Virus record (IMG/VR): IMGVR_UViG_3300046557_000852
Span: 1-38,067 of that record
DNA length: 38,067 bases
Strand: one strand, 5' to 3'
From: a virus
Shown: piece after piece, positions 1-13,746 of the stretch
Numbering within the stretch: the first letter of the stretch is position 1
How the letters are laid out: every line of letters begins with the position of its first letter
Program-made: the position numbers and the translations under genes
Notes under the pieces: generated by a model
Told to the model about the DNA's origin: nothing
The model's database searches: none
The model's input: only the letters and a program-made list of their open reading frames with translations

Positions 1-369
1 TTATGCAGCCCTCCGCTCAAGGAGCAGATCCAGTTCGATCTCCACCTTTTGCTTGCCATCCACCGACAGCTCTTTCTTCTCGCTATTTGCGATCTGAGCA
101 AGCAGAATTTTCTGTTCGGAGACGGCAAAGCGCTTCAAAGCTTCGCGCATCAGTGGTTGATAGCCCATGCCGTGAATTTTGGCGATAAGTTTAAATTGCT
201 CAATCAGATCTTTTGGAAGGCGGATAGAGATCGCCTGCAGTCCCATCGAGTCATCGATGCTGGTCTGAACTTCAGCGGAAACAGGTCGAACAAACGCCTC
301 GTCGTTTCCAAGTTGCCCGCTTTCCCAAGCTTCGATCGTGTCTTCAATCCTAATGTTGGTATCGGTCAT
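1..369 (-). CDS. BrnA/CopG-like ribbon-helix-helix antitoxin
   Basis: A 122-aa protein whose middle (about residues 44-82: LQAISIRLPKDLIEQFK followed by MGYQPLMREALKRFA) looks like a ribbon-helix-helix DNA-binding core of the kind used by BrnA/CopG antitoxins. It is the second gene of a two-gene operon, starting 12 nt after the stop of the toxin-like gene at 382-660, with a GGGAG ribosome binding site 7 nt before the ATG. In such pairs the antitoxin binds the toxin and autoregulates the operon. The family is inferred from motif and context. The stop codon is exactly at the window edge, so the gene is complete. Confidence 0.7.
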   Translation of the reverse strand: MTDTNIRIEDTIEAWESGQLGNDEAFVRPVSAEVQTSIDDSMGLQAISIRLPKDLIEQFKLIAKIHGMGYQPLMREALKRFAVSEQKILLAQIANSEKKELSVDGKQKVEIELDLLLERRAA

Positions 370-381
370 TTTATTACTCCC

Positions 382-660
382 TTAGCAGTGCGCGTACTTC
401 CTATAAATTCGGTAAATCTCTTCGGTGGCTTCATATGCCGACTTAATGTCGATGCCATCTTTTTCTGGGACAAACATAACCTTCAGCCTTCGTCCCTTAT
501 CGGTTTCGGATACAAACCATTTGGTAGTTGGGTTGGTCTTGTGCTCGGCCCGAATGTCCTCTAGGTACTTGCCTTCGATATTGCAAAAACATTGCTCAAG
601 CTCTAGGCGAGAAATGTTTCTTTCGGCAAGTTTTTGTTTGATCTTGTCGCTAATTCGCAT
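382..660 (-). CDS. BrnT-like toxin (family often labelled ADP-ribosyl-(dinitrogen reductase) hydrolase)
   Basis: A 92-aa protein beginning MRISDKIKQKLAERNIS and containing the pattern FVSETDKGRRLKVMFV and IKSAYEATEEI. This recalls short BrnT/RelE-fold proteins that are frequently mislabelled as dinitrogen-reductase hydrolases and sit directly upstream of CopG/BrnA proteins. The toxin-first order fits BrnTA-type type II systems, in which the toxin is an mRNA-cleaving RNase. A GGAG site lies 5 nt before the ATG. Toxicity is inferred from family and pairing, not visible directly. Lying outside the integrase gene, the pair may be host DNA flanking the prophage or cargo at its edge. Confidence 0.65.
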   Translation of the reverse strand: MRISDKIKQKLAERNISRLELEQCFCNIEGKYLEDIRAEHKTNPTTKWFVSETDKGRRLKVMFVPEKDGIDIKSAYEATEEIYRIYRKYAHC

Positions 661-936: not shown

Positions 937-1968
937 TTATTTGGTAGACCCAACAATTTTCCCTCGTCGCAAGTAATGGCGCTGCGTCGTCTTGACGCTG
1001 TCATGCCCTAGTAGATCACTCGCTGCCTGGTCGCCGCGCATGTCACTCGTGTCATCAGCTGCCTTGGCGCGTAGATCGTAGAAGTGGAATCCCTCGATCG
1101 CTTTCTTCATCGCCGGCGAGGCTTTGGCTGCCGCCTTGCGCGCAGCGTCGAAGTGATTGCGCAGCACGGGTGCCGTAAGGCGCTTTCCGTTGGTGTTCGT
1201 CAGCAGCGCGCCGGTGACGATCTTGTGTGTCGCTTTGCGCGCGCGGATGCGCTCGACCAGCTCGGCCAGCTTGCCGGCAAGGATAATTCGCAGCGGCTGT
1301 TGCGTCTTCGCCTGGGTCACAATGAGGTGCCCGTCGATGATGTCGTGCTCGGTCATGCGCAGCGTGTCGGCGGGCCGCTGGCCGGTGAGGTAGGCCAGAT
1401 CCATGGCGTCGCGCAGCGGCGCGCTGGCCTGCGCATAGACGGCCGCGTACATCGCGTCCGTGATGTAGACCGTGCGCTTGGCGAGCGCATGCCCCCTGAT
1501 ACCCTCGCAGGGGTTGGGAAGATCGGTATAGCCCCAGCCGCGCGCCTGGTTCCACATGGTCGAGAACAGGCGCTTGCACCTGTTGGCGGTAGTCGGCTTG
1601 TCGGCGTGATCGTCGAGGAACATTCTGATGTTCATCGGCTTGATCTGGTCCAGCGGCGCGTCCTGGAAAGACGCCATCAGGTGCTTGATGTCGGATGCAT
1701 ACATGCGCGCCGTGCTGCTGGCCAGCTTCGGCACCGCATCGGTCATGTATTTCTTCTGGACGTCGGCGAAGGTGGCGCACCGGTGGGGCGCATCTATGAC
1801 ATTCAGATCGGCGTACTTGCGCAGCGCCAGAATGAAGTCGCTGCCCAATGGCACCTCCTTGCGCTTCCCGTCCACCGTGCTGCGCAGGTAGTAGTAGGTC
1901 TTCCCGCCAAAGATGCGTTTGCGCATGTGGGGCGGGAGATTCAAATTAACGGTTGGCTTTCGACCCAT
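937..1968 (-). CDS. int: Phage integrase, tyrosine recombinase
   Basis: A 343-aa site-specific recombinase that would integrate and excise the prophage. Catalytic residues visible are Arg198 in TGQRPADTLR, Lys221 in QAKTQQPL, Arg300 in FYDLR, His322 in LLGHDS and the nucleophile Tyr332 in RHYLR. The usual His of the HxxR box is replaced by Tyr (YDLR), a substitution seen in some phage integrases. An N-terminal AP2/DUF3596-like segment (about residues 15-45) and a SAM-like core-binding domain (about 65-155) precede the catalytic domain. It is the last gene of the leftward operon and its start overlaps the DUF4224 gene by 23 nt, suggesting coupled translation. Transcription from PL would place it under CI control. 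Confidence 0.93.
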   Translation of the reverse strand: MGRKPTVNLNLPPHMRKRIFGGKTYYYLRSTVDGKRKEVPLGSDFILALRKYADLNVIDAPHRCATFADVQKKYMTDAVPKLASSTARMYASDIKHLMASFQDAPLDQIKPMNIRMFLDDHADKPTTANRCKRLFSTMWNQARGWGYTDLPNPCEGIRGHALAKRTVYITDAMYAAVYAQASAPLRDAMDLAYLTGQRPADTLRMTEHDIIDGHLIVTQAKTQQPLRIILAGKLAELVERIRARKATHKIVTGALLTNTNGKRLTAPVLRNHFDAARKAAAKASPAMKKAIEGFHFYDLRAKAADDTSDMRGDQAASDLLGHDSVKTTQRHYLRRGKIVGSTK

Positions 1969-2167
1969 GATTCACTCTCGGCTGTACCCATGTTTTTGGC
2001 GGCGGCGCTTCACGGCGACCCTCGACGGCCGCCACGGTCACCACCGGCCGCCCGATCGCATTCACCCAGAAGGCTATCCCCATTGTACGCAGTTGCTCAA
2101 CCTGCTTTGATTTGACGCGGCGCCCGGTCAGGGTAGCCACTTCGTCGAGCGTTAAAAAGGTACTCAT
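1946..2167 (-). CDS. DUF4224 domain protein, integrase-associated (possible excisionase-like)
   Basis: A 73-aa protein, MSTFLTLDEVATLTGRRV followed by KQVEQLRTMGIAFWVNAIGRPVV, matching the DUF4224 pattern. It is a short predicted winged-helix-like module usually found just upstream of phage tyrosine integrases. The position, overlapping the integrase start, suggests a recombination directionality or integrase-regulatory role; this is inference. I chose the ATG at 2167 because AAAGG lies 5 nt upstream. The alternative ATG six codons earlier has no such site. Confidence 0.75.
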   Translation of the reverse strand: MSTFLTLDEVATLTGRRVKSKQVEQLRTMGIAFWVNAIGRPVVTVAAVEGRREAPPPKTWVQPRVNHGSKANR

Positions 2168-2185
2168 ATGTGCCTTTGCTGACAA

Positions 2186-2431
2186 CTAGTTGATTTCAGG
2201 CGCCAGCGTGATCGCGCTGGCCGGCACCGGCTCGGGGCTGCCGGCGAGATAAACCGTGGTCTCCACGCCGCCGCCGGACAGGCCGACCCGCATCAGCTGG
2301 ACGAAGCAATACTTCCCGTTGTAGAGCACGCGCTGCGCCTTGTAGATGGCCCGCAGCAGCATCTGGTCGTGCTTGAATGCCTCGGCCGTTGCATGCTCCG
2401 AGACGCTCATACGTGGTTCACTCGCTCCCAT
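2186..2431 (-). CDS. Small hypothetical protein coupled to the reverse transcriptase gene
   Basis: An 81-aa protein that I do not recognise. It is soluble, with a central predicted beta-rich segment (YNGKYCFVQLMRVGL, VETTVYLAG). The ATG overlaps the last 14 nt of the reverse transcriptase gene and is preceded by AGGAGG at 4 nt spacing, so it is very probably translated. It lies between the DGR reverse transcriptase and the DUF4224/integrase genes in the leftward operon. A role in the retroelement or in integration would both fit; nothing in the sequence decides. Confidence 0.6.
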   Translation of the reverse strand: MGASEPRMSVSEHATAEAFKHDQMLLRAIYKAQRVLYNGKYCFVQLMRVGLSGGGVETTVYLAGSPEPVPASAITLAPEIN

Positions 2432-3530
2432 TGCGCCTCCTATAGGTTTTCGTCAGCGCCTTGTTGACGCTGTGGCCGCGCCGCAGCACGGCGCGCGCCA
2501 GGCGGGCTCGGTCGTGATGACTGCTCCCGGACTGGCGCAGCAGGCCGAAGTAGCTGTTGGCCGAGGTGTAGACGTCAGCAGCATCGATGCCGGCGATACG
2601 GTTGACTGCTTCGTTGACGGTGCGGCGCCGGGTGCGTGTGTTCCAAGGCCGCACCACATGTCCAACGAAGTCAACTCCGCGCGCGACCGGCTGCAGAATC
2701 GTCTTGGATGGGTTCAGGCGGGCGTGTAGCCGATCAGGCAGAAAGGCATCGATGCGCGCCAGCGCGGCGCCCAGCCACTGCGGGGATTCGTGCAGCAGCA
2801 CGAAGTCGTCGACGTAGCGCACGTAGTGCCGCGCCCGCACCTGGTGCTTGGCAAACTGGTCGAGCGCGTCCAGGTAGATATTGGCGAAGAACTGCGACGA
2901 CAGGTTCCCGATGGGTAGGCCGCAGTGTGCCGGCTGGTTGGTCAGGCGTTTGTGGGCCGGCACGCGGTCGAGCAGTTCCGGTGCGCCACGCAGCTCGTAG
3001 TCCTGGCGCGGGTCGTGGTGCAGGATGGTGCTGGCCAGCTGCATCCACCACGGCTCATTGACGCGCGCTGCAATTTGGCGGTGCAGCACCTGCTTGTCGA
3101 TCGCAACGAAGAAGTTCGCCAAGTCGCACTTGAGGTACCACAGCGGCTTCGACCAGTTCTCGCTTGCGCTGCGGATTTTGGCCTCCAGCCGCTGGGCGGC
3201 GTACAGCGTGCCGCGGCCCGGGATGCAGGCACAAGTGTCGGCGATGAAGCTGCTGTAGAACCGCGGTGAAATGCGGTTGTACAGCAGGTGGTGCACCACA
3301 CGGTCGCGGAAGTCCGCCGCCCAGACTTCGCGCGCCTTGGGGCGCGTGACGACGAAGCAGATAGATTTCCCGGGTTGGTACGAGCCGTCCGCCAGCTCGT
3401 CGTGCAGGTCGATCAGGTTGCGCTCAAGGCGCTCCTCGAACAGCAAGGCGCTCCTGGAGTTGCGTTTGTTGCGCCGGCAGTCGAAATACGCGACCACCAG
3501 CTCCTGCAGATCAAATTCCGCAGGGATCAC
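2418..3530 (-). CDS. Diversity-generating retroelement reverse transcriptase
   Basis: A 370-aa reverse transcriptase that should copy the template-repeat RNA with adenine-specific errors. From the GTG start at 3530, the motifs are: catalytic Asp136 in LKCDLANFF, the DGR-typical GLPIGNLSSQ at 204-213 (the SQ box that marks DGR enzymes), the active site YVDDF at 239-243, and a thumb-like C-terminus with GVDFVGHVVRPW. I preferred GTG 3530 because GAAAG lies 4 nt upstream and it starts just after the template repeat. An in-frame ATG at 3599 would add 23 residues encoded by the template repeat itself and has no evident Shine-Dalgarno. The order variable gene, avd, template repeat, RT is the canonical Bordetella-phage arrangement. 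Confidence 0.93.
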   Translation of the reverse strand: MIPAEFDLQELVVAYFDCRRNKRNSRSALLFEERLERNLIDLHDELADGSYQPGKSICFVVTRPKAREVWAADFRDRVVHHLLYNRISPRFYSSFIADTCACIPGRGTLYAAQRLEAKIRSASENWSKPLWYLKCDLANFFVAIDKQVLHRQIAARVNEPWWMQLASTILHHDPRQDYELRGAPELLDRVPAHKRLTNQPAHCGLPIGNLSSQFFANIYLDALDQFAKHQVRARHYVRYVDDFVLLHESPQWLGAALARIDAFLPDRLHARLNPSKTILQPVARGVDFVGHVVRPWNTRTRRRTVNEAVNRIAGIDAADVYTSANSYFGLLRQSGSSHHDRARLARAVLRRGHSVNKALTKTYRRRNGSE

Positions 3531-3539
3531 ATCGCTTTC

Positions 3540-3648
3540 ATCTGCGGACAGCGCGCGCCCGGCCTTCGTTCGACTTGTGGTTGTAGTTCTGGTTGCCATC
3601 GTTGAAGTTCTGGTTCCACGCGTTAGAGGGGTTGGAGGCGTGCTGCGT
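3540..3648 (-). repeat. DGR template repeat (TR)
   Basis: A 109-bp segment whose minus-strand sense is the source copy for three variable repeats (offsets of 665, 3139 and 3845 bp, no gaps). In the sense frame used by the variable genes it is rich in AAC codons (reading N-Q-N-F-N-D-G-N-Q-N-Y-N-H), the signature of templates built for adenine mutagenesis. Against all three VRs I count 39 mismatches at template adenines and one elsewhere. The 3' (sense) end, from about 3577 down to 3540, contains adenines but is invariant in the VRs apart from one G to T, as expected for the region where cDNA priming/homing starts (IMH-like, GC-rich). Confidence 0.95.
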
Positions 3649-3820
3649 CTATTCGTGCTATCTACGTCATCCCGCCGAAGGCATCGGCCGATCAGCGGGA
3701 AAACTGCGCCAGGCCTGGCCGGACACCGCCGGCTGGTTCCTGTGGTGCGCATGGCGGTGGCCTTGTGAGCCAGCGGCACGACCAGATTTAAAAATCGCTC
3801 AGACATGACGGCCTTGACGG
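3649..3820 (-). other. Spacer between avd and the template repeat (5' part of TR RNA)
   Basis: This 172-bp stretch between the avd stop and the template repeat shows no credible gene. In Bordetella-type DGRs the RNA flanking TR is structured and is needed for cDNA synthesis, so this segment may form the 5' part of the template RNA. That role is inference from the family. The long upstream extension of the RT reading frame that crosses it has no supporting start signal. Confidence 0.4.
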
Positions 3821-4177
3821 TCACATAGCGGGCGACGATGCGGAGTGCTTGCGCCATCCACCGGCCTGCCGCCCGATCTTTGCTGTGATGCCGATGGCCT
3901 GGGCGTACTGCGTCTTCGAGATCAGCCCCAAGTCCACCGCGAGCCGGAACAGCAACTCGGTGACCTGCAGGCGCTCCAGCAGCATGTCCAGGTGCGGCAC
4001 CTTGTCCCGCGCACAGTTCGCCTTGTAGACGAGCAGCGATAGGTCCAGGCATTCAGCGTTGATCTTCTGGCCGACCGTGGTCTTGTAGTCGCGGCGCATG
4101 TTCTTGATCAGCTCCATGGCCAGCAACATCAATTCGTAGGTCAGCTTGTAGATCGGCAGTTCGGTATGGAGGGCCAT
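3821..4177 (-). CDS. avd: DGR accessory variability determinant (Avd), four-helix bundle protein
   Basis: A 118-aa, almost entirely helical protein (MALHTELPIYKLTYELMLLA, then long Leu-rich helices through residue ~95) with the size, composition and position of Avd/S23-like four-helix bundle proteins. Avd forms a positively charged pentamer that binds the DGR reverse transcriptase and template RNA and is required for retrohoming in the Bordetella system. It lies directly between variable gene 1 and the template repeat, 13 nt downstream of the former's stop. The C-terminus is basic (AKIGRQAGGWRKH). Identification rests on fold-type pattern and context. Confidence 0.88.
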   Translation of the reverse strand: MALHTELPIYKLTYELMLLAMELIKNMRRDYKTTVGQKINAECLDLSLLVYKANCARDKVPHLDMLLERLQVTELLFRLAVDLGLISKTQYAQAIGITAKIGRQAGGWRKHSASSPAM

Positions 4178-4190
4178 GAAAATTACTGAA

Positions 4191-4598
4191 TTACTGAATG
4201 ATTAATCTGCGGACAGCGCGCGCCCGGCCTTCGTTCGACTTGTGGTAGTAGCCCTGGGAGCCATCGTCGAAGTTCTGGCCCCACGCGTTAGAGGGGTCGG
4301 AGGCGCGCTGCTCGCCGGACCAGTACCAGCGCGGCTCGAACTCCTCCTTCAGGTTGGCGAACAACAGAGACTGCTCGCGGCGCGTCGGCAGGTCGCCGCC
4401 GGCGCCGACGGCGAATTTCTTCGCCTTGTCCCAGCTGACGCCTTCGACTTTGCCCGGCAGCAGGATCAGGTGGATGTCCGGCTCGCCGTTTTTGCCCAGC
4501 AGCAGGCCGGCGTACAACTCGCCCTCCCGCAGGTTTTGCGCCAAGAACTGCGCCTTGGCTTCGCGCACGCCCAGCGCTGCAATCGCTTCTTCGGTCAT
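4191..4598 (-). CDS. DGR variable protein 1 (DUF1566/C-type-lectin fold)
   Basis: A 135-aa protein ending in the variable repeat. The C-terminal part (about residues 70-133: DLPTRREQSLL, RWYWSGEQRASD, then KSNEGRARAVRR) is the DUF1566/Lcl-type C-type-lectin fold used by DGR targets to display variable residues. The N-terminal ~65 residues are a short domain that I do not recognise. There is no signal peptide or membrane segment, so the protein is predicted to be cytoplasmic. VR1 differs from the template at 10 adenines, the least diverged of the three. The start ATG has only a weak GAAAG upstream. It immediately precedes avd. Confidence 0.88.
   Translation of the reverse strand: MTEEAIAALGVREAKAQFLAQNLREGELYAGLLLGKNGEPDIHLILLPGKVEGVSWDKAKKFAVGAGGDLPTRREQSLLFANLKEEFEPRWYWSGEQRASDPSNAWGQNFDDGSQGYYHKSNEGRARAVRRLIIQ
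4205..4311 (-). repeat. DGR variable repeat VR1
   Basis: The segment aligns to template positions 3540-3646 without gaps. All 10 differences are at template adenines on the coding strand (7 to G, 2 to T, 1 to C). Homology ends two bases before that of VR2/VR3. It lies at the 3' end of variable gene 1; downstream (sense) is a direct repeat of TTCAGTAA instead of the hairpin seen after VR2 and VR3. Confidence 0.95.
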
Positions 4599-4673
4599 GA
4601 TTTACTTTCGTGTTGTAAGTGGGCCGCCGGCCTGGGGCGCGGCGGTGTTGGGTGCTGCAACTTCAAAATCGGT

Positions 4674-4784
4674 CTACCACCAGTTCCAGATTGCCAGCGC
4701 AATGAACAGGCCGTAGGTCAGCACAATCTCGATCCACACGGTTCGGCGGGAGTTGTGGTCCTTTTCCACGTTCGGCTTAGTCAC
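4674..4784 (-). CDS. Small single-span membrane protein
   Basis: A 36-aa peptide with a charged N-terminus ([13 protein letters not shown]) and a C-terminal hydrophobic span (about residues 16-36, ending AIWNWW). The GTG start at 4784 overlaps the stop of the HD-domain gene and has GGAGG 5 nt upstream, which makes translation credible despite the size. A topology with the N-terminus inside is predicted from the basic residues. The function is unknown. In early-left phage operons such small membrane proteins sometimes act in exclusion, but nothing here demonstrates that. Confidence 0.6.
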
Positions 4785-5373
4785 AATCGCCTCCTTCGGT
4801 TTCGTGAATCCCGGCATAGCGCTGGGATACCAGTTCGTAATAGCGGCGCAGGAAGGCGGCTTTCGCCGCCGGCGGCGCCAGCGGGACGATCTGGTCCGGC
4901 AGCGGCTCGATACCAACCAAGCACGCCCACTGGCCGGCGCCTGCCGGCATCAAGTCGCGCTGCTCGGTGGCGAGGAGAACCATGTCGGCCCGCTTGATTT
5001 CGGAGGGCATGATCGGGTTGACGCCGAAGCGGGTCAGCACGGCGTGCTCGACGGCCTTCTCGATCACCTTGTAGTCGGGGAGCAGCGCCTTCAAGGGCCG
5101 CGAGACGTCGCCGATGAAGGCCTCGGCCGCATCGTGCAGCAAGCCCGCCAGCGCGTGCTCAGGCGCCACCGCGTAGCTGACCAGCACGGAGTGCTGGGCT
5201 ACCGAGTAAAACTCGCGCACATGGCCTGTGAAGCGACACACGTGCGCCAGCGCGTGCGCCACATCCTCGATATCGAAGATGGATTCAGCCGGCGTCACGA
5301 AGTTGAAGTAGTTGCCGGACTGCGTGAAGATGTCCGGGCGCATTGGCGCGCCGATGAAGGTTGCGTGGTTCAT
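4777..5373 (-). CDS. HD-domain phosphohydrolase (YfbR/5'-nucleotidase-like)
   Basis: A 198-aa HD-superfamily metal-dependent phosphohydrolase. Metal ligands are seen in the order H ([10 protein letters not shown]), HD ([17 protein letters not shown]) and a later Asp in [12 protein letters not shown]. It resembles the YfbR-like/phage HD proteins that remove phosphate from deoxynucleoside monophosphates; the substrate is inferred. I chose the ATG at 5373 because it overlaps the rdgC stop in an ATGA junction and has a purine-rich site (GGGAGG...AAAGG) before it. The longer frame upstream is a shadow of rdgC. A nucleotide-pool role during phage DNA (or cDNA) synthesis is plausible. Confidence 0.85.
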
Positions 5374-6269
5374 GCCTTTGCCTCCCCGCCCAGGGCTTCG
5401 ACCACGCCGGCCATCAGCTTGGCCAGTTCGCCGGTCATCAGCATGAAGTCGCCGTCGAAACGCTCGTCGTCGTTCCTGGTGCTTGATTCCTTCTCGCTGA
5501 TGACGTCCAGCGGCTTGATGCCCTTGATCGCCAGCGATTCGGTGAGGACGAAGGAAATCTTGCTGTCCCAGGTCATGGCCAGGCGGGTGCACTGCTTGCC
5601 GGCGGCGATGTGGCGGCGCACTTCGTCCGCCTCCAGCGTGTGGCGCACGTAGCGCACGGCCGCCTTGCTCTCGCCGGTGGCGCGCAGCTCGGTGTCCATG
5701 TCGACCGTGAAGCCGGCCGGCGCGTCGTCGGCCTGCAGCCATTCGGTCATCACGCCCACCGGCGAGCGTTGCACGCGCAGGCTTTCCAGCGGCAGCTTGT
5801 CGACCGCCTTCAGCAGCAGCTTGATGACGTCGTCGGCCTTGGCCGGGCTGGCGGCATCGACCACCAGCCAGCCGTTGACCGGGTCGATCCAGACATCCGT
5901 CGACACGGCGATGCTCAGCGCGCGCGGCAGCAGCTCGTCAGCGATGCGCTCCTTCAGCTCCTTCATCGCCTTCTTTCCCGGCATGAAGCCCTGGGCCTCT
6001 TTCATTTCCTCTGCGCGCTTGCTTGTCAGCTGATTGATCGCCTTCGCCGGCATCAGCTTCTTCTCGGTTTTCAGGCGCAGCAACATCTGTCGGTTGACCG
6101 CGTGCACCAGGTCGCCACCGTCGCGCGGCGGGACCCACCCCTGGCGCATCAGGTCATTACTTTCCGCCGGCACGAACCAGTGTGGCGCCAGCACGTCGAT
6201 CAGGTCGGCGGCGGTCATCGCCCAGTTTTTCGGCAGGCAGTAAATCTGAAGATTTTTGAACCACGACAT
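5370..6269 (-). CDS. rdgC: Recombination-associated protein RdgC
   Basis: A 299-aa protein of normal RdgC length, with the family's N-terminal [12 protein letters not shown] and internal features such as [21 protein letters not shown], and [23 protein letters not shown]. RdgC forms a ring dimer around double-stranded DNA and limits RecA loading. Phage copies may protect or steer recombination on the phage genome. It sits in the middle of the DGR operon, between variable genes 2 and 1, and ends in an ATGA overlap with the HD gene. Whether it influences DGR retrohoming is an open question raised by the location. Confidence 0.93.
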
Positions 6270-6284
6270 GGCGTGTCCTTTTCA

Positions 6285-6476
6285 TTATTGTTGGCTGATA
6301 ATTTGACGCATGCGCTGCTCGGCGACGACCTGGGCCCGCAGCGCGTGAAGCAATTCGGCGCCGATGCTGTCGTACTCGGCCCGCAGCTGGCTGCTGCGCT
6401 GCACGCTAGCGCGGTACGACTGGCGCGCGAGCTGGCGCCGCGCCGCGCGGTACAGCAGATAGATCCAGCAAATCAC
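6285..6476 (-). CDS. Small hypothetical protein with N-terminal hydrophobic segment and coiled-coil-like tail
   Basis: A 63-aa protein starting at a GTG that overlaps the TGA stop of the upstream small gene (GTGA junction), which suggests coupled translation. Residues 1-9 (MICWIYLLY) are hydrophobic, followed by a basic, Arg/Gln-rich helical region (RRQLARQSYRASVQRSSQLR) and a predicted helix to the end. It may be membrane-anchored by the short N-terminus. I do not recognise a family. Its stop lies 15 nt before the rdgC start. Confidence 0.5.
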   Translation of the reverse strand: MICWIYLLYRAARRQLARQSYRASVQRSSQLRAEYDSIGAELLHALRAQVVAEQRMRQIISQQ

Positions 6477-6604
6477 GGCTGCACCATTGCGGTCACGCCC
6501 AGCGCGCCCGCGTCGTAGGCCGCATCGATCAACAGACCGATGTCGCCGATTGCCGCGTAGGTGCGCATGCCGTCGGCGGTGCGCTCGGTGATGAGATATT
6601 TCAT
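6473..6604 (-). CDS. Small hypothetical protein (43 aa)
   Basis: A 43-aa protein beginning MKYLITERTADGMRTYAA. The ATG has GGAG 6 nt upstream, and the stop overlaps the next GTG start, both signs of a real translated gene in the compact leftward operon. The sequence suggests a small beta-then-helix fold. I do not recognise the family and assign no function. Confidence 0.5.
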   Translation of the reverse strand: MKYLITERTADGMRTYAAIGDIGLLIDAAYDAGALGVTAMVQP

Positions 6605-6628
6605 GAACGTCTCCATCAGGTGGCAGAT

Positions 6629-6644
6629 GCGCCGCGGGCGGCGC
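6629..6644 (-). other. Hairpin downstream of VR2
   Basis: A perfect 6-bp GC stem (GCGCCG/CGGCGC) with a 4-nt loop lies 34 nt beyond the sense 3' end of VR2, outside the coding sequence of variable protein 2. An analogous hairpin lies 33 nt beyond VR3. In Bordetella phage, a hairpin/cruciform just downstream of VR increases retrohoming to that target, so these are candidate homing elements. There is no T-tract, so a terminator is less likely. Confidence 0.5.
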
Positions 6645-6667
6645 CGGGGAATCAAATTGATGAAAGA

Positions 6668-7309
6668 CTAAATGGGCAATCTGCGGACAGCGCGCGCCCG
6701 GCCTTCGTTCGACTTGCGGCCGTAGCCCTGGCCGCCAACGTCGAAGCCCTGGACCCACGCGACAGAGGGGTAGGAGGCGTGCTGCGTGCTGGACCAGTAC
6801 CACCAGTCTTCGAACGCATCGGCCCCGCCTTCGCGGAAGTTATCCAGCGTGGTCTGTGCGGGGATCTCGTCGGCATAGGCCACGCCTACCGGCACGCTGC
6901 TCGGGTTGATGCCGTCTTCACCGTCGGCGTAATTTTCGTCATCGGTCGGCTTGAAGGCGCGGTACTGCAGCTCCTGCTCGTCGCGGCTTGGGATGTACCA
7001 GTCGCTATAGCCGTTGATGGTCAGCGCCATCGCCGCGCGCGCCAGCTCGCTGCCGGCGCCGGCCAGCGCTTCAGTGTTGGCCTGGCCGTCAGCGCGGTGC
7101 TGCGCGCCCTCGACCATCGAGGTTGGCGCCTGGAGCTTGCCGCGCAGCTCGCCGGCGGCGCCGGCCGTGATCAGGGCGAAGCGCTTTCCGCCGATCTGGA
7201 AGACGCCGGTGAAGAAGCCGCCTGCGAACGGCGCGCCGATCTCGGCCGGGATCGCCACGGCGGATGCCGGGGCAGGGGATGCGATTGCAGCAGCGACAGC
7301 AGTGCTCAT
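6668..7309 (-). CDS. DGR variable protein 2 (DUF1566/C-type-lectin fold)
   Basis: A 213-aa protein, paralogous to variable protein 3 over nearly its whole length (shared FTG, GKRFALITAGA, DWYIPSRDE, YRAFKPTD, NYADGEDG and YWSSTQHAS). The C-terminal half is a DUF1566/Lcl-type lectin fold carrying VR2, which differs from the template at 16 adenines. The N-terminus is Ala-rich but has no basic segment or clear hydrophobic core of a signal peptide, so a cytoplasmic location is predicted. I chose the ATG at 7309 because GGAG lies 6 nt upstream. It is the second gene behind PL. Confidence 0.88.
   Translation of the reverse strand: MSTAVAAAIASPAPASAVAIPAEIGAPFAGGFFTGVFQIGGKRFALITAGAAGELRGKLQAPTSMVEGAQHRADGQANTEALAGAGSELARAAMALTINGYSDWYIPSRDEQELQYRAFKPTDDENYADGEDGINPSSVPVGVAYADEIPAQTTLDNFREGGADAFEDWWYWSSTQHASYPSVAWVQGFDVGGQGYGRKSNEGRARAVRRLPI
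6679..6787 (-). repeat. DGR variable repeat VR2
   Basis: The segment aligns to the full template 3540-3648 without gaps. All 16 differences fall at template adenines (12 to G, 4 to T), making it the most diverged of the three copies. Nine template AAC codons are hit, changing N to V, G, D or other residues. The 3' flank is shared with VR3 (TGCCCATTTAGTC then TTCATCAATT), so the two targets descend from a duplication that included flanking DNA. Confidence 0.95.
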
Positions 7310-7338
7310 GGTGTGCTCCATTGGTGGTTAAGGGGATC

Positions 7339-7351
7339 GGCGCGGCGCGCC
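7339..7351 (-). other. Hairpin downstream of VR3
   Basis: A 5-bp GC stem (GGCGC/GCGCC) with a 3-nt loop lies 33 nt past the sense 3' end of VR3, almost the same distance as the hairpin after VR2 although the stem sequences differ. Conserved position with changed sequence suggests the structure matters. It lies in the gap between variable genes 3 and 2 and has no T-tract. It may be a retrohoming-enhancing element or simply an intergenic structure. Confidence 0.45.
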
Positions 7352-7373
7352 TGCTTACTGAATTGATGAAGGA

Positions 7374-8198
7374 CTAAATGGGCAATCTGCGGACAGCGCG
7401 CGCCCGGACTTCGTTCGACTTGCGGATGAAGCCCTGGATGCCATCGCCGAAGTACTGGCCCCACGCGAGAGAGGGGTTGGAGGCGTGCTGCGTGCTGGAC
7501 CAGTACCAGGCGGGCGACAGTGCGTCGGCGCCGCCGGCGCGGAAGTTCTCGACCGTGGTCTGCAGCGGGAATTCCTTTGCGTACGCCAGGCCGACCGGAT
7601 CGCTGTTGGGATTGAGCCCGTCCTCGCCGTCGGCGTAGTTGCGCTGGTCGGTAGGCTTGAAGGCGCGGTACATCATTTCCAACTCGTCGCGGCTCGGGAT
7701 GTACCAATCGGTGAAGCCGCCGATGGTCAGTGCGGCAGCCTGGTTAGCCAGCGGACTATCGCTTTCTTCCATGTCCAGCGTATTGTCCTTGCCGTCGCAT
7801 CGACTGAGCGCGCCTTCGAGGCGCGGCGCCTCGGGATGCCAGGCGCCGCGCAGTTCGCCCTCGGCGCCGGCCGTGATCAGCGCGTAGCGCTTGCCCTCGA
7901 CGACGATGATGCCGGTGAAGTAGCCGCCGCCATACGGCGCGCCGATGGCTCCGGAGAAGTTGCACTCGGGGCGCAGCGCGAACGCGCTCAGGCCCAGCTG
8001 GGCAATCAGATCGGGGGATGCGGTGACGATGCGCTGGTCGGCATCGAGCACGATCAAGTGCTGGCCGGCGCGGTCGGTGTATTTGGTGAAGCCTTCCCAC
8101 GCCGACGAGACGGCCAGGCCGGTGATGGTGCGGTCACCCAGCTTGGCGCTGTAGGTGCGTTCTTCGGTGATGCTCAGGACTGCGGCGGCAGGTGCCAT
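7374..8198 (-). CDS. DGR variable protein 3 (DUF1566/C-type-lectin fold)
   Basis: A 274-aa protein, the first gene after the PL-like promoter. Residues ~85-274 are paralogous to variable protein 2 and end in the DUF1566 lectin fold with VR3. An extra N-terminal ~80-residue domain (SITEERTYSAKLGDRTITGL..., VLDADQRIVTASPDLIAQLG) is absent from the other two targets; I do not recognise it. No signal peptide or membrane span is seen. I chose the ATG at 8198 because GGAG lies 6 nt upstream. VR3 differs from the template at 13 adenines, plus one G to T change that makes Val instead of Gly in the otherwise fixed tail. Confidence 0.88.
   Translation of the reverse strand: MAPAAAVLSITEERTYSAKLGDRTITGLAVSSAWEGFTKYTDRAGQHLIVLDADQRIVTASPDLIAQLGLSAFALRPECNFSGAIGAPYGGGYFTGIIVVEGKRYALITAGAEGELRGAWHPEAPRLEGALSRCDGKDNTLDMEESDSPLANQAAALTIGGFTDWYIPSRDELEMMYRAFKPTDQRNYADGEDGLNPNSDPVGLAYAKEFPLQTTVENFRAGGADALSPAWYWSSTQHASNPSLAWGQYFGDGIQGFIRKSNEVRARAVRRLPI
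7385..7493 (-). repeat. DGR variable repeat VR3
   Basis: The segment aligns to the full template without gaps. Thirteen differences are at template adenines (7 to G, 5 to T, 1 to C). The only non-adenine difference found among the three VRs lies here, at plus-strand position 7408 or within a base of it (C in TR, A in VR3), inside the otherwise invariant priming-side segment; it is best explained as an ordinary point mutation. Confidence 0.95.
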
Positions 8199-8231
8199 CT
8201 TGTTCTCCATCGGTTGGTGAGTCGATGGAGT

Positions 8232-8260
8232 ATCTTAGGCATGCCTAAATTTAAAGTCAA
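8232..8260 (-). promoter_or_regulatory. PL-like promoter of the DGR/integrase operon
   Basis: On the minus strand a -35 TTGACT (8260-8255), a 17-bp spacer and a -10 TAAGAT (8237-8232) precede variable gene 3 by about 34 nt. The 14-bp operator palindrome at 8235-8248 fills part of the spacer and supplies the first bases of the -10. This is the same geometry as at the rightward promoter at 9436-9465, so one repressor should shut both. This is promoter prediction from sequence only. Confidence 0.75.
8235..8248. promoter_or_regulatory. Operator OL1 (perfect 14-bp palindrome)
   Basis: TTAGGCATGCCTAA is a perfect palindrome and the best match to the consensus TTAGGCNNGCCTAA deduced from five sites around the repressor gene. 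It overlaps the -10 of PL, so bound CI or Cro would block transcription of the DGR operon. Confidence 0.8.
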
Positions 8261-8268
8261 TAAAAATG

Positions 8269-8282
8269 TTCGGCTTGCCTAA
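8269..8282. promoter_or_regulatory. Operator OL2
   Basis: TTCGGCTTGCCTAA matches the operator consensus with one change and lies just upstream of the PL -35, centred 34 bp from OL1. Paired sites at PL are typical of lambda-type immunity regions. Confidence 0.65.
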
Positions 8283-8329
8283 TTAATTTTTAGGTGCGGG
8301 GCGTTTATTCGAGATTTTTTGAGGTGCGA

Positions 8330-8695
8330 CTAAAAGCGAGTGTTGTATTTTTTCGTGAACTCGTCTTCTAGGTTCTTGCATGTGGCCTGGTCGTACTGGA
8401 GTGTGGATATGGGGGCATGGGCTGCATCTTGCCAGCACTGGTCAACCTTTGCGTGGTCAACCAGCCGCTGCATTTCACCAGAGGATCCTGGCGGTGCATT
8501 TTTGTTAGGGGATGCGGCATCCAGGAGAGGCGCAGCACGCTTGGATAGGGCGCCGAACGCGATGAACGCCGCTAGTAAAGCAAGCACGCACCACATCCAC
8601 ACTTTGGACTTCAAGGGGCGGGCGCCGCAGGTAGGGCATGCCTTTGCAGTATCGCTGTGTTCTTTGCCGCAGTCGCGGCAAATAATAAGGCTCAT
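8330..8695 (-). CDS. Zinc-ribbon single-span membrane protein, co-transcribed with the repressor
   Basis: A 121-aa protein. An N-terminal zinc ribbon (ICRDCGKEHSDTAKACPTCG, two CxxC knuckles) is followed by one hydrophobic span (about residues 31-48, WMWCVLALLAAFIAFGAL) and a soluble C-terminal domain with two Cys. The ATG at 8695 has AGGA 5 nt upstream and starts 7 nt after the repressor stop, so the gene should be expressed with cI in the lysogen. Lysogen-expressed membrane proteins often serve in superinfection exclusion; here this is only an inference from position. Confidence 0.7.
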   Translation of the reverse strand: MSLIICRDCGKEHSDTAKACPTCGARPLKSKVWMWCVLALLAAFIAFGALSKRAAPLLDAASPNKNAPPGSSGEMQRLVDHAKVDQCWQDAAHAPISTLQYDQATCKNLEDEFTKKYNTRF

Positions 8696-8702
8696 ACAGA
8701 TC

Positions 8703-9389
8703 CTAAAAATGGTCGCCTTCGCGCCTGACAACGCGGCCAATTATTATGCATTCAGTCTCTTTACACGCGCGCCTGTAAAACTTACGTTGGTCGGCATTGT
8801 CAGACATGAGCCACCATTGCCCCATATCCCTCGACATCCTTTTAACTACGGCTTCGCCGTCATAGTTCACTGCGAAAATTCCGTTGTCTACCGGGCTTTT
8901 GGCATCGAGATTTATCACGACTGTGTCGCCTTCATATAGGGTCGGCTCCATACTTTCCCCCTTGACCCTGATTGCAATGAGCCTGGCAGGATTGTATTCC
9001 TTCCTGTCTGCCCAATTCTTTGATATCCCCATTGTGCCACCGTCCCGACGATCTGGTTCGGTCTGAAATCCTGTTACACCTGCCTGCAATCTAAGCTGAA
9101 CCATCGGGATCTTATATTCGAATTCATTACTCTCGGCCTCATCGCTCACAACGACCCGCATTGCACCTGGAATGAGATCAGTGATTGATTCGGCACCATG
9201 TAAAAGCCATTCTGGCGTAACTCCAAGAGCGGAGCAGACCTTCATCAGGTTTGAGCCCTCGATCATCTTCGTGTTGCCATTTTCCCAATCTGTGACAGTG
9301 GGTGGGGATACGCCAATCAGCTTTGCAAAAGCTGATTTCTTGATGTCTTTAGCCTCTCGGGCCAAGGTTAGTCGTTTGTGCCAGTTCAT
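8703..9389 (-). CDS. CI-type repressor, HTH plus S24 self-cleaving peptidase
   Basis: A 228-aa repressor with an N-terminal helix-turn-helix (about residues 15-60, FAKLIGVSPPTVTDWENGNT) and a C-terminal LexA/CI S24 domain. The serine is Ser146 in VKGESMEPTL, the lysine is Lys183 in EAVVKRM, and a candidate Ala103-Gly104 cleavage bond (LQAGVTG) lies at the expected distance. It should maintain lysogeny and be inactivated through RecA after DNA damage. An operator covers its own start codon (9389-9402), suggesting autoregulation. By operator geometry it controls PL and PR. Confidence 0.92.
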   Translation of the reverse strand: MNWHKRLTLAREAKDIKKSAFAKLIGVSPPTVTDWENGNTKMIEGSNLMKVCSALGVTPEWLLHGAESITDLIPGAMRVVVSDEAESNEFEYKIPMVQLRLQAGVTGFQTEPDRRDGGTMGISKNWADRKEYNPARLIAIRVKGESMEPTLYEGDTVVINLDAKSPVDNGIFAVNYDGEAVVKRMSRDMGQWWLMSDNADQRKFYRRACKETECIIIGRVVRREGDHF

Positions 9390-9402
9390 TAGGCAATCCT
9401 AA
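9389..9402. promoter_or_regulatory. Operator at the cI start (OR3-like)
   Basis: TTAGGCAATCCTAA matches the operator consensus with one change. It begins at the first base of the repressor start codon, so binding would block cI expression itself. A much weaker candidate (TTCGGCATGGGTAA, three changes) lies at 9414-9427. Confidence 0.65.
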
Positions 9403-9435
9403 CAGTTGTTCAATTCGGCATGGGTAAAAATCAGC

Positions 9436-9465
9436 TTGCAAAAATCCGTTAGGTAAGCCTAAAAT
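9436..9465 (+). promoter_or_regulatory. PR-like promoter for the Cro-like gene and rightward operon
   Basis: A -35 TTGCAA (9436-9441), an 18-bp spacer and a -10 TAAAAT (9460-9465) precede the ATG at 9471. The operator at 9449-9462 occupies the spacer and the start of the -10, exactly as at PL. The expected transcription start (about 9471-9473) falls on the start codon, so the cro transcript may be leaderless. This is a sequence-based prediction. Confidence 0.7.
9449..9462. promoter_or_regulatory. Operator OR1
   Basis: TTAGGTAAGCCTAA matches the operator consensus with one change and overlaps the PR -10, so repressor binding would occlude RNA polymerase. Confidence 0.75.
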
Positions 9466-9478
9466 AAGGCATGCCTAA
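9465..9478. promoter_or_regulatory. Operator covering the cro start codon
   Basis: TAAGGCATGCCTAA matches the operator consensus with one change and contains the ATG of the Cro-like gene, only 16 bp centre to centre from OR1. Cooperative occupancy with OR1 is plausible, although the spacing differs from the usual two helical turns. Confidence 0.6.
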
Positions 9479-9776
9479 AGAAATCACTCCCGGTCAGATA
9501 ATCGATGCCCTCGGTGGTACGAACGAGGTGGCGAGGCTTTGCGAAATACAGCCGCCTTCAGTGTCGGACTGGCGCCACCTCGGAATTCCGAAGGCACGAC
9601 TTATGTTCTTGCGTCTGGCAAAACCAGATGTGTTTGCTTCTTTAGATTGCGAAAGTCAAGCCGCACCTGAAGAACACATAGAAAGAGGGCATGGGGGGCG
9701 TCAGCCGGCGTCCCCTTGTCACATCCTCGACACCGTCCCCGACGGCTCCGTCGTAATTCCCCGACCGCCCAGCTGA
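9471..9776 (+). CDS. Cro-like / YdaS-type helix-turn-helix protein
   Basis: A 101-aa protein with an N-terminal helix-turn-helix (IIDALGGTNEVARLCEIQPPSVSDW, about residues 9-35) of the Cro/YdaS kind and a Pro/Ser-rich tail. Its position divergent from cI and directly behind PR gives it the Cro role: repression of cI and of early promoters during lytic growth. The predicted PR start coincides with the ATG and no good ribosome site precedes it, so translation may be leaderless. Beyond about residue 60 the sequence looks low in structure. Confidence 0.8.
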   Translation: MPKEITPGQIIDALGGTNEVARLCEIQPPSVSDWRHLGIPKARLMFLRLAKPDVFASLDCESQAAPEEHIERGHGGRQPASPCHILDTVPDGSVVIPRPPS

Positions 9777-9920
9777 TCTGGCGCCCCAGGAAGCCCGGCG
9801 CTTCGTCGCGCCCGTGCTGTTGCATTTAGGAATTAATTTCATATCAGCACTCCAGATTACGTTTCAACAAGTATCACATTTCTTTTTATCAATAACCTCA
9901 TTTGTTTTAAGGGCTCGCCA

Positions 9921-10364
9921 ATGAACCTCCTCGACACCTTGTACAAGACGGCTCACGACTTCGCCGGCGGCTGCGAAGCGCTGGCCCAGCGCCTTGGCAT
10001 GTCCGCGCAGGTCCTGCGTAACAAGGTCAATCCGAATAACGCTTCGAACACTGCGTCGCTCGAAGACACGGACCGGATCATGGCCATCACCGGCGACCAC
10101 GCCGTCCTGCACGCCCTGGCGCGCAGCCACGGCTTCGTGTGCGTGCGCGTCGACGACGGCACCGTCGCATCCGACATGGCCGTGCTGGAGCTGGTGATGC
10201 AGGTCTGGTCCGCCAGCGGCGACGTCGGCGCCGAGGTGCACGCCACGCTGGCCGATGGCGTCGTCGAGCGGCACGAGATCGAGCGCGTGAAGGCCGCTGT
10301 GTACCGCGTCAACCGCTCGCTGAGCGAAATGGTCGGCCGCCTGGAAGGCATGGTCCAAAAATAA
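9921..10364 (+). CDS. Phage regulatory protein CII (Phage_CII family)
   Basis: A 147-aa protein matching the phage CII/CP76-type family: MNLLDTLYKTAHDFAGGCEALAQRLGMS is followed by LRNKVNP and a C-terminal helical domain (VVERHEIERVKAAVYRVNRSLSEMVGRLEG). Such proteins activate lysogeny promoters. It follows the Cro-like gene after a 144-bp A/T-rich leader in which I could not place a confident promoter; AAGGG precedes the ATG. Confidence 0.8.
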   Translation: MNLLDTLYKTAHDFAGGCEALAQRLGMSAQVLRNKVNPNNASNTASLEDTDRIMAITGDHAVLHALARSHGFVCVRVDDGTVASDMAVLELVMQVWSASGDVGAEVHATLADGVVERHEIERVKAAVYRVNRSLSEMVGRLEGMVQK

Positions 10365-11306: not shown

Positions 11307-11690
11307 ATGGGCGCCTTCTGTGTATTCGGCATCAGTAAAGCGGCATGCAAGGCCGCCGCCGAGCGCGCGCTGCCGAGCTATGAGATCTACGGCAAGGTCC
11401 GACGCGAGCTGACGATGGAAGAGTGGCGCGTCAAGCGAGACGCCATGGCCGCGCAGTTATTCGAAGAAGGTACGCGGCCAATCCGCATCAGCCCGGAATT
11501 CGATGCGCCGCAATTTTGCTACGACCGGATGGCCGCCGGCACGGCCGAGATCAAGCTGACGAAGGTGATGGTGCGCGGCCCGAAACGGGACAAGGGGGGG
11601 GCGCTCATAAAGCGCAACGGCGTAACGGTGATGACATGGCACGAGTTCACCGGCATCAACCAGTTCAAAGGAGTAGCCAATGAAGCGTGA
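11307..11690 (+). CDS. Hypothetical phage protein preceding the methyltransferase
   Basis: A 127-aa protein that I do not recognise. An N-terminal helical part contains MEEWRVKRDAMAAQLFEEGTRP and a later basic segment contains VMVRGPKRDKGG and KRNGVTVMTWHEFTG. GGAGG precedes the ATG. Its last 11 nt overlap the methyltransferase start, so the two are translationally coupled. Confidence 0.6.
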   Translation: MGAFCVFGISKAACKAAAERALPSYEIYGKVRRELTMEEWRVKRDAMAAQLFEEGTRPIRISPEFDAPQFCYDRMAAGTAEIKLTKVMVRGPKRDKGGALIKRNGVTVMTWHEFTGINQFKGVANEA

Positions 11691-13746
11691 CTTCGCAACC
11701 CTCCCTCTCGACCTGGGCCACGAGCTGATCATCGACAACTTCGCCGGCGGCGGCGGGACCAGCACCGGGCTGGAAGAGGCTTTCGGGCGTCCGGTGGACA
11801 TCGCGATCAACCACGACCCGGAAGCGCTGGCGCTGCACGCCATGAACCACCCGCACACGAAGCACCTGTGCGAGAGCGTCTGGGACGTCGATCCGATCAA
11901 GGTGACGAACAACCAACCTGTTGGTCTGGTCTGGCTGTCGCCGGACTGCAAGCATTTCAGCAAGGCCAAGGGCGGCACGCCGGTGGCGAAGAACATTCGC
12001 GGTCTGGCCTGGGTGACGCTGCGCTGGGCGGCGAAGTGCAAGCCGCGAGTGATCATGCTGGAGAACGTGGAGGAGTTCAAGACTTGGGGGCCGCTGCTGG
12101 TGGACGACGAGGGCAACTTCCGCCCGGATCCGGCCAAGAAGGGCAAGACGTTCGAGAGCTTCCTCCGCCAGCTGCGCGGCCATGGCTACACGGTCGATCA
12201 CAAGGAGCTGCGAGCCAGCGACTACGACACCCCAACGATCAGAAAGCGCTTCTTCCTGGTCGCGCGCCGCGATGGCCTGCCGATCCGCTGGCCGGCGCCG
12301 ACGAACGGCGCGCCAACGTCGGCCGGCGTGCTGGCCGGGAACCTGGCGCCGTGGCGTACGGCCGCTGAGTGCATCGACTGGTCCATCCCGTGCCCGAGCA
12401 TCTTCGAGCGCAAGCGGCCACTGGCCGAGGCCACGATGCGCCGGATCGCCAAGGGCATCATGCGCTATGTAGTGGACTCGGCCGCGCCGTTCATCGTGGG
12501 GCAGGGCGGCCCGATCTATTCCGGCAAGCCGGTTTCATCGGCGCAGCCGTTCGGCACCCTGACGACCGAGAACCATCGCGCCGTTGTCGTTCCGAGCATC
12601 GTCCCGGTCACCCACCAGGGTGGTGACCGCAGCGAATCCGTGAACGAGCCGTTCCGCACCATCACCAGCGCGCAGCGCGGCGAGAAGGCGCTGGCCGTTG
12701 CCACGCTGGTGCAGTCCGGCTATGGCGAGCGTGATGGCCAGGCGCCGCGTGCACTCGACATCGAGAAGCCGCTGGGCACAGTGGTGGCCGGTGCCAGCAA
12801 GGCGGCGCTGGTGACCGCATTCCTGAACGAGCATGCCAACGGCAGTAATCAGCGCGTGATGCCGGCGGACGAGCCGCTGCGCACGATCTGCGCCCAGGTC
12901 AAGGGTGGCCACTTCAGCGCCGTCTCCGCGACCCTGGTGGGCGTCGGTGGCCGCGCCGGCGAGAGCCGTCCGCGCGGCGCCGATGAGCCGGCCGCAACGA
13001 TCACTGCAAAGGGCGACACGGCGCTGGTCACGGCTCACATAACCAAATTCCGCACCGGCGCCACCGGCAGCGACATGAACCTGCCCATGCCGACTATCAC
13101 GGCTGGGCCTAAGGAGAACCCAGCGGGCGCTCCGCATGCGCTGGGCATCGTGACTGCGCACATCCAGCGGGACATGGGGCAAAGCATCGGGCACGCTGTC
13201 GACGCGCCGCTTGCCACTACGACTGCCGGTGGGGCAGGGAAATCAGCCTTGGTTGCAAGCAGCCTTGTCAAGCTGCGCGGCACGAGCAGCACGGCCAGCA
13301 TGGACGAGCCCCTGCACACGGTAAGCGCTGGCGGGCAACACCACGCAGAGGTGCGCGCCTTCCTGGTCAAGTACTACGGCTCCGATCAGGATCCTCGCCT
13401 CGAAGAGCCGCTGCACACCGTCACCACGAAGGATCGATTCGGTCTCGTGACCATCCAGGGCGTGGACTACCAGATAGTCGATATCGGCCTGCGCATGTTG
13501 GAGCCGGCCGAACTTTACCGCGCCCAGGGCTTTCCGGCTGAATACGTCATCCGCGAAATCCCTGATCCTGAGCTGTTATTCAAGGATGGCCACCAGGCTG
13601 AGGGCAACCCTCTGGCGCTGCCGCGCGTGCCGCTGACGAAATCCGCCCAAGTGCGCATGTGCGGGAACAGCGTCTGCCCGCCGATGGCCCGCGCGCTGAT
13701 CCAGGCGAACTTCCGGCACGAGCTCGAGATTGCGAGGGCTGCGTGA
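11680..13746 (+). CDS. Phage C5 cytosine DNA methyltransferase with internal repeats
   Basis: A 688-aa enzyme that would transfer a methyl group to cytosine C5 in phage DNA, probably to evade restriction. Motif I is FAGGGGTSTG (21-30), motif IV is SPDCKHFS with catalytic Cys90 (Asp instead of the usual second Pro), motif VI is ENV at 128-130, motif VIII-like is TPTIRKRFFLVA, and the C-terminal motif X region is RMCGNSVCPP. Between about residues 285 and 595, in place of a normal target-recognition domain, there are about nine degenerate repeats built on (D)EPL.T(I/V)TA followed by an ALVTAFLVK-like strand. The insert makes the protein longer than most monospecific C5 enzymes. Confidence 0.88.
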   Translation: MKRDFATLPLDLGHELIIDNFAGGGGTSTGLEEAFGRPVDIAINHDPEALALHAMNHPHTKHLCESVWDVDPIKVTNNQPVGLVWLSPDCKHFSKAKGGTPVAKNIRGLAWVTLRWAAKCKPRVIMLENVEEFKTWGPLLVDDEGNFRPDPAKKGKTFESFLRQLRGHGYTVDHKELRASDYDTPTIRKRFFLVARRDGLPIRWPAPTNGAPTSAGVLAGNLAPWRTAAECIDWSIPCPSIFERKRPLAEATMRRIAKGIMRYVVDSAAPFIVGQGGPIYSGKPVSSAQPFGTLTTENHRAVVVPSIVPVTHQGGDRSESVNEPFRTITSAQRGEKALAVATLVQSGYGERDGQAPRALDIEKPLGTVVAGASKAALVTAFLNEHANGSNQRVMPADEPLRTICAQVKGGHFSAVSATLVGVGGRAGESRPRGADEPAATITAKGDTALVTAHITKFRTGATGSDMNLPMPTITAGPKENPAGAPHALGIVTAHIQRDMGQSIGHAVDAPLATTTAGGAGKSALVASSLVKLRGTSSTASMDEPLHTVSAGGQHHAEVRAFLVKYYGSDQDPRLEEPLHTVTTKDRFGLVTIQGVDYQIVDIGLRMLEPAELYRAQGFPAEYVIREIPDPELLFKDGHQAEGNPLALPRVPLTKSAQVRMCGNSVCPPMARALIQANFRHELEIARAA

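Follow-up and report, generated by a model that had tools for sequence, protein, structure and literature searches.

The IMG/VR virus record IMGVR_UViG_3300046557_000852, a 38-kb contig analysed here over its whole length of 38,067 nucleotides (hereafter the window), contains a diversity-generating retroelement (DGR) in which one template repeat (TR) serves variable repeats (VRs) in three genes. The element occupies positions 2418-8210 on the minus strand and comprises a reverse transcriptase (RT) gene, the TR, an avd gene, and three VR-bearing Lcl_C genes. We consider it likely that this is a complete DGR of an Oxalobacteraceae temperate siphophage, and that its retrohoming diversifies probably cytosolic, early binding proteins produced from a CI-repressed operon. 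The original prediction, made from the letters alone, of a one-template, three-target DGR in a temperate phage that has been active in the past was supported by our analysis. The components are as follows.

2418..3530, minus strand: DGR reverse transcriptase; GTG start 10 nt after the TR; SQ box and YVDDF; PF00078, E 3e-14; phrog_1423, E 3e-120
3540-3648, minus strand: TR; 109 nt with 32 A (29% A); 10 AAC codons in the target frame
3646..3837, minus strand: RT-15 structured RNA, Rfam RF03018; 187.2 bits (gathering score 82), E 5e-46; overlaps the avd stop
3821..4177, minus strand: Avd (bAvd-like), 118 aa; PF22296 above cut-off; phrog_3206 ('Avd protein of DGR'), E 4e-32
4191..4598, minus strand: target 1, 135 aa; N-terminal helix and small Lcl_C/C-type lectin (CLec) domain; PF07603, E 3e-7, slightly under the curated cut-off
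4205-4313, minus strand: VR1; 11 of 12 mismatches at TR adenines
6629-6644, minus strand: GC hairpin, 6-bp stem, 34 nt past VR2
6668..7321, minus strand: target 2, 217 aa, Lcl_C; PF07603, E 3e-9; phrog_4245 (unknown function), E 6e-30
6679-6787, minus strand: VR2; 16 of 16 mismatches at TR adenines
7339-7351, minus strand: short GC hairpin, 5-bp stem, 33 nt past VR3
7374..8210, minus strand: target 3, 278 aa, Lcl_C with an extra N-terminal region of ~88 aa; PF07603, E 2e-11
7385-7493, minus strand: VR3; 13 of 14 mismatches at TR adenines

The three VRs align with the TR without gaps and in one common reading frame, and each is located at the 3′ end of its open reading frame, with stop codons 11-14 nt past the VR ends; the 109-bp template and its three copies are thus positioned as originally predicted. 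When substitutions were tabulated by template base from a computed alignment of the TR with VR1-3 (109 nt for each VR), 40 of the 42 mismatches were found at template adenines, i.e. 27 A>G, 11 A>T, and 2 A>C, and the other two were a C>A at TR base 2 (VR1) and one G>T (VR3). An earlier count of 39 of 40 (26, 11, and 2) is exact when the first two bases of VR1, at the repeat edge, are omitted. Given a TR with 29% A, the chance of finding 40 of 42 mismatches at adenines is ~5e-20. Any two VRs differ at 13-15 sites, and because all except 1-2 of these are at template adenines, the three copies appear to have been rewritten separately; together with similar differences among relatives, this agrees with the claim that an adenine-only pattern in three independent copies reflects past activity. 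The mutated adenines occupy codon positions 1 and 2 exclusively, and each of the ten AAC codons of the TR can be converted to up to 15 amino acids and never to a stop codon, corresponding to ~8e17 theoretical protein variants. No further VR was found in a scan of the whole window.

The same signature was observed between natural variants. Around the RT, loci L021 and L022 show 95.3% identity; they have the same TR, and the differences between their corresponding VRs are all at template adenines (16/16, 15/15, and 13/13). Codon changes in these VRs are 30 nonsynonymous and 0 synonymous, compared with 24 and 42, respectively, outside the VRs. Relatives with an identical TR and different VRs, which had been proposed as a check, therefore exist, and the situation that would speak against activity, namely VRs identical among isolates alongside a degenerate RT, was not encountered, since VRs differ among TR-sharing relatives and the RT is intact.

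Two collection scans identified 160 loci encoding RTs 49-94% identical to that of the window, and the scan loci, the named phages described below, and the window itself yielded 142 distinct loci with a TR/VR set. With VRs called by identity only, 94.7% of the mismatches in these 142 loci are at TR adenines, and the mismatch rate is 0.428 per template A compared with 0.006-0.025 for C, G, and T, i.e. 17-70 times higher; an even spread over the four bases in a larger set of strains, which would have argued against a DGR, was not observed. The adenine bias vanishes when the VR is treated as the template. A first mismatch table (98.7% at A) was partly circular, as its VRs had been pre-filtered for A bias, and was replaced by the identity-only scan. 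All VRs (321/321) are located upstream of the TR and on the TR strand, and at least two VRs are present in 126 of the 142 loci; among the 121 loci whose sequence extends 7 kb or more beyond the TR on the upstream side, the number is 114. In L043, L079, L080, L105, L131, L144, L165, and L171, a clade RT was identified and a TR/VR pair was not found; some of these are contig ends, and others may be decayed.

The predicted DGR-type RT was confirmed by its SQ box and YVDDF motifs and by the PF00078 and phrog_1423 matches, and the predicted avd gene by Pfam bAvd and PHROG matches. By tblastn, the RT shares 62-71% identity with nine isolated-phage records and 30% with brt of BPP-1, and among the phage records listed the identity drops from 62.6% (LPPA56) to 36% or less. 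Avd is present in 44 of 45 related records. L062 (G025) is a clade member in which Avd was not detected and the VR is just 220 nt from the TR, possibly representing an Avd-less version. RT-15 ends at the first TR bases in the window and in all nine relatives tested (9/9) and, because it sits directly 5′ of the TR, is probably the leader of the template RNA. No paper linking RT-15 to DGRs was found in the mostly open-access literature searched, and the novelty of this link is thus uncertain. At the 3′ end of the VRs, 38 nt are nearly constant and would correspond to the initiation of mutagenic homing (IMH) sequence. GC hairpins follow VR2 and VR3, and the hairpin downstream of VR1 is of the AT type only; family-wide, stems of at least 7 bp after VRs were found in 20% of cases vs. 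1.6% in shuffles.

From these components, an RNA spanning the RT-15 leader and the TR would be copied by the RT together with Avd into cDNA, with random bases placed opposite the template adenines. This cDNA would take the place of the 3′-terminal VR in any one of the three Lcl_C genes, homing being guided by the matching 3′ ends and the downstream hairpins of the targets. The RT-dependent mutagenic retrohoming step is proposed by homology to BPP-1.

Structure predictions relate the target proteins to known DGR variable proteins. The AF2 model of target 1 (pLDDT 95.4) gave 8q4e (Lcl C-terminal domain) as the best Foldseek match, with C-type lectins also matched, and 8q4e was likewise the best match of the target 3 model (pLDDT 80.6). 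Target 3 starts with an ATG at 8210, and another in-frame ATG is present at 8198. Targets 2 and 3 are paralogues (64% identity over 190 aa), and target 1 has another architecture. No tail-family match was obtained for the targets in Pfam or PHROGs, and PADLOC assigned them to no defence family, returning generic RT matches only. In a hydropathy screen of 352 targets, export signals were essentially absent, with three weak candidates and some hydrophobic core strands, none of which was convincing. In annotated relatives, the operon neighbours include recombination, nuclease, and methyltransferase genes and a 'host nuclease inhibitor', and phage D3 carries a Lar-type restriction-alleviation gene. 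We favour the interpretation that the targets would be small, early-expressed, intracellular binding proteins, which is the weakest step of our argument. Target-like Lcl_C genes (~27-30% identical) are also found in jumbo Pseudomonas phages (PA5oct, MIJ3, Callisto, and others) and in D3; a clade RT was not found next to D3 orf68, so this protein family may serve some purpose that does not depend on diversification.

The position of the targets points to control by the phage repressor. The window carries genes for terminase, portal, capsid, tail tape measure, and a tail-fibre-like protein on the plus strand, whereas a leftward run extends from target 3 (8210) to an integrase gene (937) in the order of targets 3 and 2, RdgC, dNMP phosphatase, target 1, avd, RT-15/TR, and RT. 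The other features of this run and of the adjoining lambda-like immunity region, formed by the CI, Cro-like, and CII-like genes, are the following.

937..1968, minus strand: tyrosine integrase at the far end of the leftward run; PF00589, E 3e-14
4777..5373, minus strand: dNMP phosphatase (HD superfamily), between targets 1 and 2; phrog_318, E 3e-73
5370..6269, minus strand: RdgC recombination-associated protein, between targets 1 and 2; PF04381, E 3e-106
8232..8260, minus strand: promoter-like site TTGACT-17-TAAGAT before target 3 (sigma70-like scan); proposed pL-like operon promoter
8235..8248, no strand: CI-operator-like palindrome TTAGGCATGCCTAA, inside the 8232..8260 promoter-like site
8269..8282, no strand: second operator-like site TTAGGCAAGCCGAA
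8703..9389, minus strand: CI-like repressor (helix-turn-helix and S24); PF00717, PF01381, phrog_4
9389-9402, 9449-9462, and 9465-9478, no strand: three operator-like sites at cI/cro, two of which adjoin the cro promoter-like site
9471..9776, plus strand: Cro-like gene; weak PF14549 P22_Cro match, E 4e-4, below cut-off
9921..10364, plus strand: CII-like regulator; PF06892, E 6e-41

The site at 8232..8260 is the only minus-strand sigma70-like site within positions 2000-9800, and all matches to TTAGGYAWRCCTAA with one mismatch or fewer in the window are either at cI/cro or directly before target 3. As in lambda pL, an operator-like site of the cI/cro type is located, at the sequence level, within the promoter-like site. 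In the clade, a CI homologue was recognized at 32 loci and is encoded upstream of the targets on the same strand in all of them (32/32). A shuffle-controlled search for half-sites at a spacing of 13-18 nt showed that, in 17 of 26 testable loci (~0.4 expected from shuffles), the region upstream of cI has operator-like palindromes in common with the stretch between cI and the targets; several different operator sequences are represented among these 17 loci. Where the cI-target gap is short, the shared operator-like sites are within 450 nt of the first target (7/11), and otherwise they are further up (10/15). D3 has a two-mismatch site between cI and the target-like orf68. Near-exact 14-nt palindromes shared by cI/cro with the distal target had first been searched for, but the outcome was clear for the window alone, and the half-site search was used instead.

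Targets, Avd, template, and RT thus look like one leftward, lambda pL-like early operon repressed by CI. With CI-operator-like sites at its promoter-like site, this operon would be mostly shut off in the lysogen, and its expression would begin early in infection or upon induction, so that each lytic round would seed progeny with new target versions. The products may act inside the newly infected cell on a varying partner, e.g. a host defence or take-over factor.

The tail genes are located on the plus strand at 28-37 kb, and none of them, including the tail-fibre-like gene, contains a VR. Scans covering most or all of the records of nine relatives located VRs solely in the early region, and the tape-measure gene is on the strand opposite the targets in 14 of 15 records (this family was found in 16 of 45 records, one of which was too weak to use). 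Close relatives were found in genomes of Rugamonas (including Rugamonas aquatica FT29W, relative L094, RT 94% identical), Duganella, Massilia, and Janthinobacterium, which makes an oxalobacterium the probable host. Searches of plasmid records did not recover the region.

The BPP-1 DGR consists of brt, avd, and mtd, shows adenine-specific TR-to-VR changes, and carries its VR at the 3′ end of a CLec-fold gene followed by a hairpin; its one target is a tail receptor protein. The window element shares with it an RT (30% identical), Avd, adenine-specific changes, and the VR position in a CLec-fold gene, and short GC hairpins follow two of its three VRs. It differs in having a very distant RT and three non-tail targets behind CI-operator-like sites. 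Judged from the genes alone, a tail or receptor-binding target was not found here, given the location between cI and int, the lack of a tail-family match, and the VR-less tail module. The contrast originally drawn with single-target phage DGRs accordingly stood as regards the targets, which are unlike a tail receptor, and did not stand as regards their number, which is unexceptional in view of the clade-wide VR counts given above and of published multi-VR DGRs.

The DGR of Burkholderia phage Magia (CPT_Magia_044-047, 057) resembles the window element in its RT (66% identity), RT-15, a TR between avd and RT, and three VRs (15/15, 8/8, and 11/11 differences at A), all located between integrase and repressor; it differs in having RecT/nuclease genes in place of RdgC and in its third VR, 7 kb from the TR by the repressor region. 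The annotators of that record flagged two lectin-fold genes as 'potential DGR target'. Pseudomonas phages Cruim01, SC_8_H2H8, LPPA56, and Haboob and Shewanella phage QDWS belong to the same clade (RT 63-71%) and have VRs in the early region, but each carries two VRs and targets rather than three. As seen from records OP650936.1 and OK094664.1 (L007), 'Hujiaoplasma phage zrk29-1' (Tenericutes host) equals Shewanella phage QDWS in length (47,902) and RT match, and its host label looks doubtful.

DGRs with several targets have been published, namely in DiGReF (PMC3521204), whose DGRs could not be tied to prophages; in Stenotrophomonas SKA14 (PMC6642488), with DUF1566/Lcl_C targets as here but two TRs; and in the nd4/nd12 phages (PMC10743442), whose targets are described as receptor-binding. 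None of these was described as a repressor-controlled early operon. A global survey assigned phage DGR lineages mainly to attachment proteins and left other viral targets as unknown (PMC8144416), and nothing relevant on phage DGRs with non-structural or early targets was found in the mostly open-access literature searched. Multi-target DGRs and DUF1566/Lcl_C targets are therefore known, and we found no description of a phage DGR clade with non-tail targets in a CI-linked early operon.

The isolated Pseudomonas syringae phages Aurca01 and Medea1 (L011 and L012) match Cruim01 at ~93-99.9% in long aligned stretches, and a clade RT was not found in the regions of these two phages that were read. 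Compared with the Cruim01 TR, the differences in their VRs are at A in 14/14 and 18/20 (Aurca01) and in 18/18 and 14/17 cases (Medea1). The two phages look like natural cassette deletions that retain both target genes.

A reading in which the targets, like that of BPP-1, are tail-tip adhesins of the virion that happen to be encoded apart from the tail genes, with the DGR switching host tropism, would accord with the well-characterized phage DGR target being an attachment protein, with the assignment of most phage DGR lineages to such targets (PMC8144416), and with the C-type-lectin-like fold known from DGR variable proteins (PMC5006420, PMC6328139). We nevertheless regard it as unlikely, as the tail module and its VR-less tail-fibre-like gene are on the other strand 20 kb away, in a layout conserved in relatives, and the target proteins are mostly 120-280 aa, have no tail-family match, and are encoded in an operon with CI-operator-like sites. 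Because those sites lie within the promoter-like sequence preceding target 3, the targets are predicted to be silent in the lysogen; together with the lack of an export signal, this also makes it improbable that they serve in lysogenic conversion or superinfection exclusion, as proteins produced by the prophage that would alter immunity to other phages as they vary. The target genes do, however, follow cI in the same orientation and could be transcribed from its promoter, and the target-like gene of D3 is located just after cI. A decayed DGR, in which the VRs are relics and the targets now ordinary genes, would find parallels in Aurca01 and Medea1, which have targets without TR, Avd, and RT, but it is very unlikely for the window, where RT, Avd, RT-15, TR, and all three reading frames are intact, only 2 of 42 substitutions are off template A, and close relatives with an identical TR show many different VRs. 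Ordinary gene-family duplication with biased drift, to which the paralogy of targets 2 and 3 might point, has next to no probability: the similarity between targets and TR ends sharply at the repeat edge, target 1 has the same VR in spite of its other architecture, and the excess of mismatches at template A is strongly asymmetric between TR and VR, which refutes this reading.

Several points weigh against a CI-repressed DGR with intracellular targets. Export signals were looked for with a hydropathy heuristic, and signal peptides are missing from phage virion proteins as well. The operators and the promoter are sequence matches, the total number of promoter-like sites in the scan is no higher than in shuffles, 9 of the 26 testable loci have no shared operator, and the RT and template RNA could have promoters of their own. 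The identity-only mismatch scan also reuses TRs that had been found via A-bias-filtered VR calls.

Other features of the window were also recorded. A second tyrosine recombinase gene (15195-16262, plus strand) is present in the rightward early region in addition to the integrase gene at 937-1968, and several relatives also have two. A DNA methyltransferase gene of unusual length (11680-13746, plus strand; 688 aa) is encoded in the same early region. Outside the integrase, a CopG-type antitoxin and a weak DUF4258/BrnT-like toxin form a pair (1-660, minus strand) that may be either a phage moron or part of the host sequence flanking the phage.

The usual teaching is that phage DGRs serve to switch receptors, whereas the RT clade described here appears to aim mutagenesis at non-tail proteins of an early, repressor-linked operon. 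We tentatively suggest that, in a widespread clade of temperate phages, RT mutagenesis may diversify early proteins that act inside the cell and bind a host factor that varies, e.g. a defence component, and would thus serve counter-defence or take-over rather than receptor switching. The intracellular ligands of the variable proteins, a coupling of hypermutation to induction via the phage's own repressor, and the role of RT-15 have become testable questions, for which Cruim01, with the cassette, and Aurca01 and Medea1, without it, would provide ready-made natural pairs.

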